Source: Billgrantia pellis (lineage in GTDB: Bacteria; Pseudomonadota; Gammaproteobacteria; Pseudomonadales; Halomonadaceae). Taken from it: DNA of 64,000 bases. Shown piece by piece: positions 2,481 through 5,740 of this stretch; positions within the stretch are counted from its first letter, which is position 1; each line of letters starts with the position of its first letter. Below the pieces are notes generated by a model that was not told where the DNA came from, made no database searches, and was given only the letters and a program-made list of their open reading frames with translations. The translations under genes were made by a program, and so were the position numbers. Location of the stretch: the NCBI RefSeq assembly GCF_008297955.1, contig NZ_VTPY01000003.1, forward strand, positions 620,001 through 684,000. Direction: 5' to 3'.

Positions 2481-2819
2481 ATGAAAGCAACATTTGTCGA
2501 GCTGCCATCCTTCGAGCGGCACCGATCCATCTACTTCGATGACGCCGCCTTTCGTGCCTTCCAGAGTTTCTTGCTCCAGAACCCGGGGGCCGGTGACGTC
2601 ATCCAAGGAACAGGCGGGTTGCGCAAGGTCCGGTTCAGTGATCCTAAGCGGCAGAAGGGCAAGCGGGGCGGTGTCCGCATCATCTACTACTGGTGGCTGG
2701 GAGGCTCCCAGTTCTGGCTGTTCACTCTGTACGACAAGGATTCACAGGATGACCTCACGCCAGCCCAGCGCAAGACCCTGAGACAGCTGCTGGATGCGGA
2801 AATCAACGCGAGGACATGA
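2481..2819 (+). CDS. higB: HigB-like toxin (RelE/ParE superfamily)
   Basis: This is probably a ribosome-dependent mRNA interferase. The 112-residue protein has the short RelE-type fold signature: FVELPSFERHR near the N-terminus, GLRKVRFSD, RGGVRIIYYWW and FWLFTLYDKDSQDDLTPAQ. This pattern matches the HigB2-type toxins encoded upstream of their antitoxin, as here. Start ATG 2481 is the only good one. The stop TGA overlaps the ATG of higA (ATGA), so the two are translationally coupled. The gene is intact, unlike the toxin-antitoxin pair upstream. Confidence is high for the family and moderate for the exact target. Confidence 0.85.
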   Translation: MKATFVELPSFERHRSIYFDDAAFRAFQSFLLQNPGAGDVIQGTGGLRKVRFSDPKRQKGKRGGVRIIYYWWLGGSQFWLFTLYDKDSQDDLTPAQRKTLRQLLDAEINART

Positions 2820-3136
2820 CCATGGGCCGTAACATTTTTGACGAACTCGTCGAGGGCTTCGACGCATTGGCAGATGAGCGCCAAGGCAAGCGCACGCTGC
2901 GCTCCCACTCCGTAGAGCTGGCGGAAGTTCCCGACGTCACAGCCAGCGAGCTCATCGAGCTGCGGGAGCGGCTGCATATGTCCCGCCCAGTATTCGCCAT
3001 GTATCTCCGCACCAACCCCAGGACGCTGGAGAATTGGGAGCAAGGCCGCGCCAAGCCCAATGCCCAGGCCATGATACTCATCCGACTGGTACAGAAGTAT
3101 CCTGAAACACTTGAGCATCTCGCTGATCTTGCCTAG
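2816..3136 (+). CDS. higA: HigA-like antitoxin (helix-turn-helix)
   Basis: The antitoxin neutralises the HigB-like toxin and represses the operon. It has 106 residues. The C-terminal half carries the helix-turn-helix: ASELIELRERLHMSRPVFAMYL, then RTLENWEQGRAKPNAQA, typical of HigA2. The N-terminal about 40 residues (FDELVEGFDALADERQGKRTLRS in part) would be the flexible toxin-binding segment. The start at 2816 overlaps the toxin stop; a second ATG at 2822 is equally possible. It sits between two decayed loci, so this pair may be what stabilises the island. Confidence 0.85.
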   Translation: MTMGRNIFDELVEGFDALADERQGKRTLRSHSVELAEVPDVTASELIELRERLHMSRPVFAMYLRTNPRTLENWEQGRAKPNAQAMILIRLVQKYPETLEHLADLA

Positions 3137-3148
3137 CAACATTGAGCG

Positions 3149-3304
3149 CTACGGCACCGGAAACCGCACCTCCCGCACCCTTACCCTAAAGAACGGAAAG
3201 TACGCCTCAGTACCGAAGTGATTGCCCACCTCGACCCGGGTGGGCAGGGTGAAGCCTTCGAAATTGCGGAAGTCGTCCAGATAACCGCCAAGGGCTGGAG
3301 CCGC
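3149..3304 (-). pseudogene. C-terminal scrap of an unidentified protein
   Basis: On the minus strand about 50 codons read GGYLDDFRNFEGFTLPTRVE, then VGNHFGTEAYFPFF and end with VRFPVP and a stop. This reads like the tail of a conserved DUF6544-like hypothetical protein, but I recognise the style rather than a named family. No upstream part exists: beyond about 3304 the sequence turns into the lasso B2 remnant on the other strand. So the rest of the gene was lost at a junction near 3300-3310. Confidence 0.4.
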
Positions 3305-3349
3305 CATTCTTGTCGGGGTTCGCGTTGCCCCATGAACCAAGCAGAAACG

Positions 3350-3597
3350 ACCTAATCTGCGCTAGCACTACTGCAGCCATCGTAGAGGTGGCACTATTGG
3401 GCACTTTATCGAGTGGAGTGTCTAGAGTGTTCGATATCGCTGTCACGGCTGCTTCTTTCACTGGGTATCTGCCCCACATTCCGCATAGGTGTCAGCGGTA
3501 CGATTTCTTATCGCATGCTTGGGTTGAAGTCGGGGGACAGGTGCTAGGCGACGATCCAAGCTTGCCTGTAAGGATATGCCCAATGGTTGGCATCTAG
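3350..3597 (+). pseudogene. Lasso-peptide maturation protease B2 (McjB-type), frameshifted remnant
   Basis: B2 is the cysteine protease that removes the leader peptide from a lasso precursor. Parts of it are spread over several frames. VECLECSISLSRLLLSLGI followed by CPTFRIGVS is readable in the frame of codon 3419-3421 (the putative catalytic Cys). RYDFLSHAWVEVGGQVLGDD is readable in another frame and ends at TAG 3595-3597, giving the His and Asp of the triad. The switch lies near 3500-3507. Upstream pieces (STTAAIVEVA; HFIEWSV) sit in yet other frames, so more indels are likely. The assignment rests on the C-x-H-A-W-x-E pattern and on the exporter 16 bases downstream. The N-terminus is missing. 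Confidence 0.6.
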
Positions 3598-3613
3598 ACC
3601 ACAGAGGTCTGCT

Positions 3614-5329
3614 ATGAAAGATCCGTATCAATCATCCTACTTTACGACCTATCGACGAGGACTCTACCTAGTCCGCTCAAGCTATCCAAAATTTCTAGTT
3701 CACCTCGTGCTCGTGTTGCTACTCATGATATGCATAGCGGCAGCCGGTGCAGCCGTTCCCTATTTGCTTCGCCAGACGACTAATCTCCTGGTTGCAGAGC
3801 CAGATGAAACGGTTGTTGGTATGATCTACGTCTTCGCAACTGCCTATGCGGTTGGCTGGACATTGAGCAATATGATGGAGTGGGGTAAAAACCTCGCGAG
3901 CTCGTACGTTATGGCCAGATGCGATGCGGCCGTTTATTCCAACATTGTACGAAGACTCTTTCATCTACCTTACCAAGCACAGAACCAACTTGAAACGGGC
4001 GTGGTTATGGCAGACGTGAACCGCGCGATGAGCAGCTTTGGCCTGATCAACCACGCCATCTTCTGGACCATCGCCCCGGTGGTCATCCAGCTCTGCTTCG
4101 TCTTCGGCATTCTGTGGCAGGTGATAAATCTTACCTTCGCGGCCGCCTTCATCCTGGCCATCGTGGTGCTCTTCGTGCTCACCTACCGAATTGCCGATAC
4201 GACAACCCGCATCCACAAGGACTTCTACCAGACGCATACCCAGCTGAGTGAATTCCTCGCCGAGCGCCTGCGCGCCCTGTACGACATCAAGATCAACCTC
4301 GCGGCCGGACATGAAGAGCGCACCCTCGACCAGCAACTGCGCACCTACGTTCACACCGTATACGGGACCCATGCCAAGCTCAGCGGCTTGATGGGTGGGC
4401 AAGTGCTCGCTGTGGGTCTCGTGCTTGGCGGGTTCACGCTCTATACCGTCAGTGAAACGCTACGCCAGCGCTATCAAGTCGGCGACTTCATCATGATCAC
4501 GACCTATGTGGTTCAACTCACCTCCCCGTTCGTCATGATTGCGGCGGCGTTGATCGACCTCAAGAAGAACTACGTCGCCCTCGGGGACGGCCTTAGATAC
4601 CTTGACCTGCCGACCGAGCCACAGGCCGCAGCCGATATCGCCCTTGATCGTCAGCAGCCTGTGTTCGCGCTGCGTGCGGTTACCCTGCGCTCTGATGGCG
4701 CCACGGCCGCCATGCCGCTCAGTGTGGAGATTCAGGCTGGCAAGATGTACGGGGTGCGTGGCTCCTCTGGAAGCGGGAAGTCCAGGCTGTTGAGGACCCT
4801 TCTAGGGCTCGAGCCCCAAGCGGCCGGCGAGATCCTCTTCCACGGTGTCAGTGTTCGCCGCCTTTCACCGGAGGCAATCCTTGGGGAAGTGAGTGTCGTT
4901 CCCCAAGCGCCGCTGATCTTCAGCGGCAGCCTTCGCGAGAACCTGCTGTACGCGCACCCTCAGCCTGTGCCTGACCAGGAGCTGCTGGCACTCGTCGACC
5001 TCCTGGATCTAGGACGAATCGGCGGTGAAACCTCTGGCGAAGGCGTGCTGGATTGGGATGTCGGCGTGCAGGGGCGAAATCTCTCGGGGGGTGAGCAGCA
5101 ACGCATTGCCATTGGCAGGGCTCTTCTACGCGGCACTCGCACCATGATCCTTGATGAGCCTACGGCGGCGCTGGATAGTGCTCGAGAAATTCAGCTCATG
5201 AAAGCGCTAAGAGAACGGGTGGATACGCTTGTGGTAGTCAGCCACCGTGAGCAGGTGCTCGCACTCGCTGATGAGTTGATTGATGTCGGGCCGTGTAATG
5301 CGACATTGGCTTGCCGCCACCTACCATAA
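3614..5329 (+). CDS. McjD-type ABC exporter (lasso-peptide D protein), intact
   Basis: This is a half-transporter with fused membrane and ATPase domains, predicted to export a lasso peptide and give self-immunity. Six hydrophobic segments occupy roughly residues 15-300. The ATPase shows Walker A GSSGSGKS at about 383-390, signature LSGGEQQR at about 490, Walker B MILDEP at about 511 and the H-loop His at about 544, so all catalytic motifs are present. The length of 571 residues is normal for McjD relatives. ATG 3614 is preferred over the upstream TTG because AGAGG lies six bases before it. It follows the B2 remnant as in real clusters. The first 400 bases are visibly AT-richer than the rest. 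Substrate is inference. Confidence 0.75.
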   Translation: MKDPYQSSYFTTYRRGLYLVRSSYPKFLVHLVLVLLLMICIAAAGAAVPYLLRQTTNLLVAEPDETVVGMIYVFATAYAVGWTLSNMMEWGKNLASSYVMARCDAAVYSNIVRRLFHLPYQAQNQLETGVVMADVNRAMSSFGLINHAIFWTIAPVVIQLCFVFGILWQVINLTFAAAFILAIVVLFVLTYRIADTTTRIHKDFYQTHTQLSEFLAERLRALYDIKINLAAGHEERTLDQQLRTYVHTVYGTHAKLSGLMGGQVLAVGLVLGGFTLYTVSETLRQRYQVGDFIMITTYVVQLTSPFVMIAAALIDLKKNYVALGDGLRYLDLPTEPQAAADIALDRQQPVFALRAVTLRSDGATAAMPLSVEIQAGKMYGVRGSSGSGKSRLLRTLLGLEPQAAGEILFHGVSVRRLSPEAILGEVSVVPQAPLIFSGSLRENLLYAHPQPVPDQELLALVDLLDLGRIGGETSGEGVLDWDVGVQGRNLSGGEQQRIAIGRALLRGTRTMILDEPTAALDSAREIQLMKALRERVDTLVVVSHREQVLALADELIDVGPCNATLACRHLP

Positions 5330-5341
5330 GACCATCCGGGT

Positions 5342-5740
5342 TTAGCGGGCAAATCCGGGAAACTTGGGCAGCTCGTCGGCAAGCTCGAACCACTCGGCCT
5401 TGGACGAGACCCAGGCGTGGTAGCGCTTGCAGGGCGATATCGGCGTATCGAGTGTGCCTAGCCGCAGCCGCTTGGCTTCGGGCAGGTCATCGCGGGCGCT
5501 GTAGAGCGGGCTGCCGCACTCGCTGCAGAACACACGCGCCTTGTTCGGCGTGGCGCGGTACTCCTTGAGGTATTCCGCGCCCTGGGTAATGCGAAAGTCG
5601 GACGAGCGGATGAGCGCCACGGCGGCGAAGGCCGAACCCTGGGCCTTCCGGCACTGCTGGCAGTGGCACATGGAGACTTCATCGATCTCGCCGCGGTAAT
5701 CGTACTTCACTTTCCCGCACAGGCAGCTTCCCTGGTGCAT
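5342..5740 (-). CDS. GFA-family zinc protein (CENP-V/GFA fold)
   Basis: This family is named after glutathione-dependent formaldehyde-activating enzyme, but most members have no proven reaction. The 132-residue protein shows the expected cysteine pattern: C6 and C8 (SCLCGKV), C25, C27 and C30 (CHCQQC), and C72 and C75 (CSEC), which would bind zinc. The start ATG has GGGGAGAG upstream. It converges with the ABC exporter gene and ends 12 bases from it, marking where ordinary chromosome resumes. A second family member lies at 12858-13250. Confidence 0.9.
   Translation of the reverse strand: MHQGSCLCGKVKYDYRGEIDEVSMCHCQQCRKAQGSAFAAVALIRSSDFRITQGAEYLKEYRATPNKARVFCSECGSPLYSARDDLPEAKRLRLGTLDTPISPCKRYHAWVSSKAEWFELADELPKFPGFAR

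Follow-up and report, generated by a model that had tools for sequence, protein, structure and literature searches.

The window analyzed here is a stretch of 64,000 nucleotides (positions 620,001-684,000 of contig NZ_VTPY01000003.1) from the 4.35 Mb genome of the salt-loving Billgrantia pellis. Lasso peptides are antibiotics with a knotted shape. The window hosts the remnant of a lasso-peptide B2 (McjB-type) protease gene, followed by the gene of a McjD-like ABC exporter whose frame is uninterrupted across 571 codons (Table 1). The protease remnant (B) ends with a stop codon at 3595-3597 and the exporter starts with the ATG at 3614, after a gap of 16 bases. An earlier note, written from the letters of the window alone, had given the same gap, had described the locus as a vestigial lasso cluster and had proposed that the exporter could remain as immunity against the lasso peptide of a relative.

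Table 1. Features of the lasso locus, numbered from the first base of the window
Feature	Coordinates	Strand	Evidence
Left flank: about 61 C-terminal residues of a DUF6544/DUF6920 gene, remainder replaced by the lasso fragment	3149..3332	-	63-aa frame; DUF6920 21.5 bits, below cut-off 27
Lasso B2 (McjB-type) protease gene, 3' remnant; 5' end absent, two one-base frameshifts	3350..3597	+	profile matches and alignment to cluster B genes
Cys codon within the B2 remnant; aligns to the Cys of cluster B genes	3419..3421	+	alignment
Lasso-type ABC exporter (McjD-like), 571 codons; final residues replaced at the 3' deletion junction	3614..5329	+	profile matches, open frame, alignment, tree
Central tract, approximate (codons 136-475), closer to other alleles than both ends: recombination mosaic	4019..5038	+	sliding identity and count test
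Walker A motif GSSGSGKS	4760..4783	+	alignment
Arg codon (position 391) after Walker A; Thr in the nine other open alleles	4784..4786	+	alignment
3' junction	5303..5346	.	exporter homology stops near 5302-5309 (exact end by eye); homology to exporter-less genomes restarts at 5347-5356
Right flank: ordinary open gene with weak resemblance to glutathione-dependent formaldehyde-activating enzymes (under NCBIfam cut-offs)	5342..5740	-	

The B remnant is the truncated and frameshifted 3' part of a lasso B gene. It is homologous to the B genes of the five clusters described below, with 75-83% DNA identity over 244 compared columns, and the B protein of B. kenyensis matches positions 3325-3594 far above chance (E-value 1e-15). 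Curated cut-offs for the B2 protease are not reached: with PF13471 the open frame of 95 codons at 3310-3597 attains 21.5 bits (residues 63-85; cut-off 26), and with the NCBIfam model lasso_biosyn_B2 (NF033537; cut-off 33) it attains 21.6 bits. The B proteins of Aidingimonas halophila and B. kenyensis score 66-80 bits, above both cut-offs. The two best PF13471 matches of the whole genome nevertheless both lie in the remnant, at 3499-3564 (19.9 bits) and, in a different frame, at 3317-3496 (16.9 bits). A complete lack of PF13471 matches, which the earlier note had named as evidence against its reading, did not occur.

According to the alignment, the remnant reads in frame 1, frame 2 and again frame 1, through two one-base shifts. 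The TAA at 3353 and the TAG at 3383 belong to frame 2 upstream of the first shift, where the gene is not in frame 2. Of 232 codons, roughly 140-150 are missing at the 5' end. The Cys codon and the His of the HAWVEV motif beginning at 3514, which we take to be the catalytic residues, both align with the cluster B genes, yet in different frames. These landmarks, and a reading spread over at least two frames, had been noticed before and are all present. The private substitutions of the remnant in the window lineage are distributed 2:7:22 over the three codon positions. Since they are mostly third-position changes, B was probably functional along most of the branch and disappeared late, and the loss of the maker genes in the window lineage looks recent.

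The exporter consists of a membrane domain fused to an ATPase (PF00664, 35.2 bits; PF00005, 87.5 bits; both above cut-off). McjD (PDB 4pl0) matches its residues 111-555 with an E-value of 3.5e-34 and is not the top PDB match, as P-glycoprotein-type chains score above it; McjD is not among the listed PDB matches of four other exporters. The NCBIfam transporter models listed for it, 25 of 191, are all far under their cut-offs. We built a protein tree of 27 sequences that used ten ABC exporters of the window genome as comparison group and did not include McjD itself, bacteriocin exporters from elsewhere or one paralog of the window genome (L147) in which no frame was found. In this tree, the exporter clusters with the exporters of lasso clusters and apart from the remaining ABC exporters of the host, with low supports within the exporter family (13-98). 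This grouping and the low NCBIfam scores do not support a multidrug or other exporter of the host genome. A grouping with multidrug or bacteriocin exporters, which the earlier note had named as further evidence against its reading, did not appear in this tree, whose comparison group came from the host genome. A simple scan detected no promoter-like site at 3100-5500 (shuffles averaged 1.0), a result that counts against a maintained immunity gene.

The B remnant is the only lasso gene near the exporter, while in five relatives a cluster surrounds its homolog. As had been claimed, neither a precursor nor a cyclase is present: searches of the window genome with the B. kenyensis precursor and the A. 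halophila cyclase returned no match, which also speaks against a maker gene elsewhere in that genome. In two genomes of the same genus (G083 and G043), the left flank runs into an open gene of 284 aa (DUF6544/DUF6920 by Pfam in G083) that adjoins the same right-flank gene. Compared to these genomes, the lasso fragment (3333 to about 5346) replaces about 780 bases, mostly the 5' part of the 284-aa gene. The exporter occurs in 2 of 90 genomes of the genus, including the window genome. In B. kenyensis the lasso cluster adjoins copies of stretches that the window also has (Xre-, cupin- and DUF6544-type), which fits a loss in place at the window locus.

Two other elements lie upstream in the window. 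Positions 1-2356 contain a RES/Xre-type toxin-antitoxin pair split by a transposase-bearing stretch, IS3-like by eye; positions -28 to 221 and 1431-2354 are adjacent in another genome (G009, L090) with an overlap of 6 bases. The RES frame has 156 aa, compared to 226 aa in Halomonas socia, and its start looks broken. Adjoining the lasso remnant, a small toxin-antitoxin-like pair at 2481-3136 combines a RelE-like and an HTH protein, both under Pfam cut-offs.

Our search of related genomes identified the cluster with the gene order A-B-exporter-C, where A is the precursor and C the cyclase gene, whole or nearly whole in five genomes of the family: A. halophila (L020), A. lacisalsi (L021), B. kenyensis (L019) and two MAGs (L025, L027). 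Their exporters are the same exporter (87-92% protein identity), and divergent LuxI and LuxR genes lie nearby. The existence of these clusters, and the matching neighbor stretches in B. kenyensis, confirm that the window locus is the vestige of a lasso cluster. In the A. halophila cluster, the B2 protease (68.6 bits), the asparagine synthase (71 bits), the LuxR domains and the autoinducer synthase all exceed their Pfam cut-offs. With NCBIfam, B2 passes (80.3 bits; cut-off 33) and the cyclase does not (best score 89.2; cut-off 300). The putative precursors have 49 residues, with cores of the form G[STG]GGGAIIEG[TS]YAV[YW]R[DA]PW[ST], and residue -2 is Thr in three of them and Ile in the two of Aidingimonas. 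No precursor model was passed, the best being the J25-family model in B. kenyensis (14.0 bits; cut-off 23), so that the assignment of the precursors rests on their place, conservation and core. By general lasso chemistry, the ring would close on Glu9 of the core. Some of the clusters are not entire: B. kenyensis has an insertion element, recognized by eye, that separates the exporter from C; C is divided across two contigs in G246, with a TAG in the shorter piece; and the reading of C contains two in-frame TAGs in G248. The LuxI-type synthase and LuxR regulator map to L020:5844-7519, L019:12111-13828, L025:6307-8016 and L027:3431-5164. Their presence suggests that lasso production in the family is under quorum control, and no obvious report of such control appeared among the papers listed in our literature search.

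We then counted the lasso genes across the family. The exporter is present in 11 of 275 genomes (E-value 1e-50 or better). Precursor, full-length B and long C are each found in five genomes, all of them among those 11, and none of the 275 genomes has a precursor, a full protease or a long cyclase without the exporter. Since the exporter was searched with a stricter E-value than A, B and C, this one-sidedness is not due to a laxer exporter search. Six of the 11 exporter genomes lack the maker genes, namely the window genome, Halomonas sp. ML-15 (G115), G242, Vreelandella nigrificans (G221), V. zhaodongensis (G272) and H. socia (G113). In five of these the exporter is open; in H. socia it is in pieces, with no B homology upstream. 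Short pieces of C persist 3' of the exporter in G242, V. nigrificans and V. zhaodongensis. We rejected a short C match in Halomonas sp. ML-15 as a remnant because it sits at the 3' end of the exporter itself, and set aside as weak a B-like match in G235 (20.7 bits, four stops, no exporter there).

The upstream junctions are distinct in the window, in Halomonas sp. ML-15, in G242 and in the pair formed by V. nigrificans and V. zhaodongensis. Moreover, a nucleotide tree built from the ten open alleles places the cluster-bearing alleles among the orphans with supports of 93-100, on the understanding that recombination can mislead such a tree. Because the junctions differ and the cluster alleles are nested, the maker genes appear to have been lost at least four separate times, if clusters were not regained. 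In G242, relatives of the EamA and LysR-type genes that flank the cluster of A. halophila are found a few kilobases away from the orphan exporter, and these neighbors fit a loss in place there as well. Beside the same exporter, at L023:11594-14711, PADLOC detects a protein pair matching Drt3a and Drt3b, reverse transcriptases of anti-phage defence.

To measure selection on the exporter we relied on a custom branch-wise codon model, coded in Python with F3x4 frequencies and a nucleotide tree from IQ-TREE, and applied to codons 1-560 of the ten open alleles, with H. socia excluded. A single omega across the ten alleles is 0.103. Cluster and orphan branches give 0.092 and 0.119, respectively (P-value = 0.11). 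Since orphan branches mix time before and after the loss, the clean test is offered by the tips of V. nigrificans and V. zhaodongensis. Both Vreelandella have the same upstream junction, the same 9-base gap in what remains of B and the same neighboring gene (oxidoreductase by eye), and the shared junction and gap indicate that B was lost before they split. On the two tips omega is 0.128, which does not differ from the rest (P-value = 0.31) and significantly different from 1 (P-value = 4e-24); the log-likelihood drops by about 2 at 0.08 and at 0.20. The differences between the two exporters are distributed 23:7:83 over the codon positions, and those of the neighboring gene 25:11:65. In V. nigrificans and V. 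zhaodongensis, the exporter without maker genes is thus kept by purifying selection, as is expected of an orphan gene that selection maintains in the absence of its makers. This result supports retention as orphan immunity. It shows that the exporter is in use and does not name its substrate or benefit.

The copy in the window makes a weaker case for orphan immunity than those of V. nigrificans and V. zhaodongensis. Its Walker A motif and, by eye, the signature LSGGE are present, and the residue after Walker A is Arg. Among the ABC loci of the host, with 28 motifs scored from the best 30 of 96 ABC matches in the window genome, this residue is Thr in 27, Ser in one and never Arg. Since all the scored host motifs have Thr or Ser where the window exporter has Arg, this exporter may be failing. 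In addition, 13 of its residues are changed at positions that are invariant in the nine other alleles, the highest count of the ten (the next is 8), and two of these changes, P384S and T391R, are located at Walker A. The allele is also a mosaic. In slices within codons 1-120 and 481-560 it shares 69-84% identity with other alleles, whereas slices within codons 141-480 are 88-98% identical to B. kenyensis, with the exception of slice 461-500 (85%), which spans the border. Changes found only in the window affect 51 of 420 bases in codons 1-140 and 13 of 780 in codons 141-400 (P-value = 6.5e-14), and the same contrast is absent in B. kenyensis (24 of 420 and 31 of 780, P-value = 0.19). Omega on the window tip is 0.096 (about 0.1 overall); for the central tract, the part in which this branch is shortest, it is 0.14 and still below 1 (P-value = 0.002). 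Because the loss is recent and the gene is mosaic, omega in the window is uninformative on selection since the loss; we set it aside as proof of immunity, both figures including pre-loss time.

Close copies of the exporter were detected within the family. A sample of 390 genomes from the order, which included members of the family, contained no close allele outside the family: besides the window's own, five matches showed 25-38% identity, the one at 38% spanning slightly more than half of the query. No viral carrier emerged from viral_contigs when they were scanned for close relatives by a pattern-based method, and no plasmid carries a close copy, all 33 plasmid records being under 60% identity. 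The closest (41%) lies in a lasso cluster of the Rhizobium leguminosarum BT01 plasmid pRlBT01d. This cluster (L097:2338-6782) has no annotation in the PLSDB record, and its long precursor core has two Cys in the tail. We examined six of the other 32 records. Three of the matches, one from E. coli and two from Pantoea (about 30-31%), are in C-B2-exporter clusters. Those from Psychrobacter, Salmonella and Klebsiella (28-30%) have no B2 annotated nearby in the PLSDB gene tables, which are incomplete. The Psychrobacter exporter nests among lasso exporters (support 98), and the Salmonella and Klebsiella ones form a sister branch to them. These three plasmids hint that orphan lasso exporters may not be confined to Halomonadaceae. 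The Psychrobacter plasmid measures 6,059 bases and bears a lone exporter at L133:2116-3798, with no B2 or cyclase annotated. On the Salmonella plasmid, the lone lasso-like exporter (L135:3968-5542) is flanked by two IS3 transposase genes with the same protein accession, and an asparagine synthase-like gene lies about 3.6 kb away. On the plasmid of Klebsiella variicola, the lone lasso-like exporter (L136:3974-5341) is between IS3 and IS110 genes.

The locus is the remnant of a family cluster of the A-B-exporter-C type with LuxI/LuxR, in which the maker genes would have been deleted on both sides of the exporter. Taken over the whole family, the data make it probable that the exporter has repeatedly been kept alone as immunity without production. 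The stand-alone exporter would pump the lasso peptide of relatives out of the cytoplasm, thus conferring immunity on a cell that does not produce it. We infer that this is the benefit because McjD doubles as exporter and self-immunity factor. The proposal of the earlier note holds better for the family, where repeated losses and the purifying selection in Vreelandella speak for it, than for the window genome, with its recent loss and the Arg beside Walker A. Likewise, the exporter that had been called intact is so as regards its open frame, and a working pump is doubtful given the replaced last residues and the same Arg.

Indeed, it is possible, though on the unlikely side, that the exporter of the window is a passive leftover, now functionless and at an early stage of pseudogene decay, with its frame open by chance. 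Arg in place of the Thr or Ser of the host motifs, the 13 unusual residues, the new C-terminal tail and the recent loss would all be expected of such a gene, and the broken exporter of H. socia, which counts against orphan immunity, could represent a later stage. The uninterrupted frame of 571 codons and the low omega of the window tip and central tract argue against it, the latter with the reservation on pre-loss time made above. It is less likely still that the full cluster was never at the site and that a fragment with part of B and the exporter arrived alone by illegitimate recombination. The replacement of about 780 bases, mostly the 5' part of a gene that G083 and G043 carry complete, and the presence of the exporter in just two genomes of the genus, are consistent with such an arrival, but the B. 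kenyensis cluster beside the same three types of neighbors fits a loss in place. Very unlikely, in our opinion, is that the stand-alone exporter is kept for a different job, for example as a general peptide or drug pump. Purifying selection is silent on the substrate and would be compatible with it; against it, the exporter clade is separate from the remaining ABC exporters of the host, and the nearest plasmid relative outside the family lies in the Rhizobium cluster, where B and C are accompanied by a precursor whose core is similar.

If the exporter is indeed retained as immunity, its non-producing carriers bear on a wider question. That lasso peptides are weapons among relatives in nature is hard to demonstrate, and non-producers in which selection retains just the exporter point indirectly to the importance of the peptide. 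Genome miners should bear in mind that a McjD-like exporter standing alone may serve immunity and need not mark a broken producer. Rather speculatively, Halomonadaceae non-producers might police one lasso family by shedding the makers, keeping the exporter as immunity and swapping its segments; the exporter would be a shared, tunable resistance gene against the quorum-controlled peptide of relatives. We regard this broader scenario as doubtful for now.

One of the closest known systems is mcjABCD of microcin J25, in which, according to two papers, McjD is needed for secretion and self-immunity (PMC5641919; PMC13352647). Like McjD, the exporter fuses membrane and ATPase domains and is encoded with a B2-type protease in lasso clusters. 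Unlike in mcjABCD, the order of the family clusters is A-B-exporter-C with LuxI/LuxR, the sequence is distant from McjD, and in the window the exporter alone is open. The cluster of pRlBT01d resembles those of the family in its exporter, in B and C identified by Pfam and in a putative precursor core, GQGGGAIVEGSYAVYRD, comparable to G[STG]GGGAIIEG[TS]YAV[YW]R. It differs in the order A-C-B-exporter and in its longer core with the Cys-bearing tail. Immunity genes that are kept or gained without maker genes are described for bacteriocins and microcins: PMC10926693 reports microcin B17-resistant E. coli with mcbG and an mcbF ortholog and no maker genes, and PMC12546727 reports 243 E. coli plasmids that carry an orphan immunity gene. 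These orphan genes serve other peptide classes than the lasso exporter; a search for mcjD in the main text of PMC12546727 gave nothing, and PMC10926693 has it in the reference list only. A literature search of incomplete coverage found no earlier description of a lasso exporter that selection maintains as an orphan. Orphan immunity is already known, and a lasso exporter would be a new case of it.
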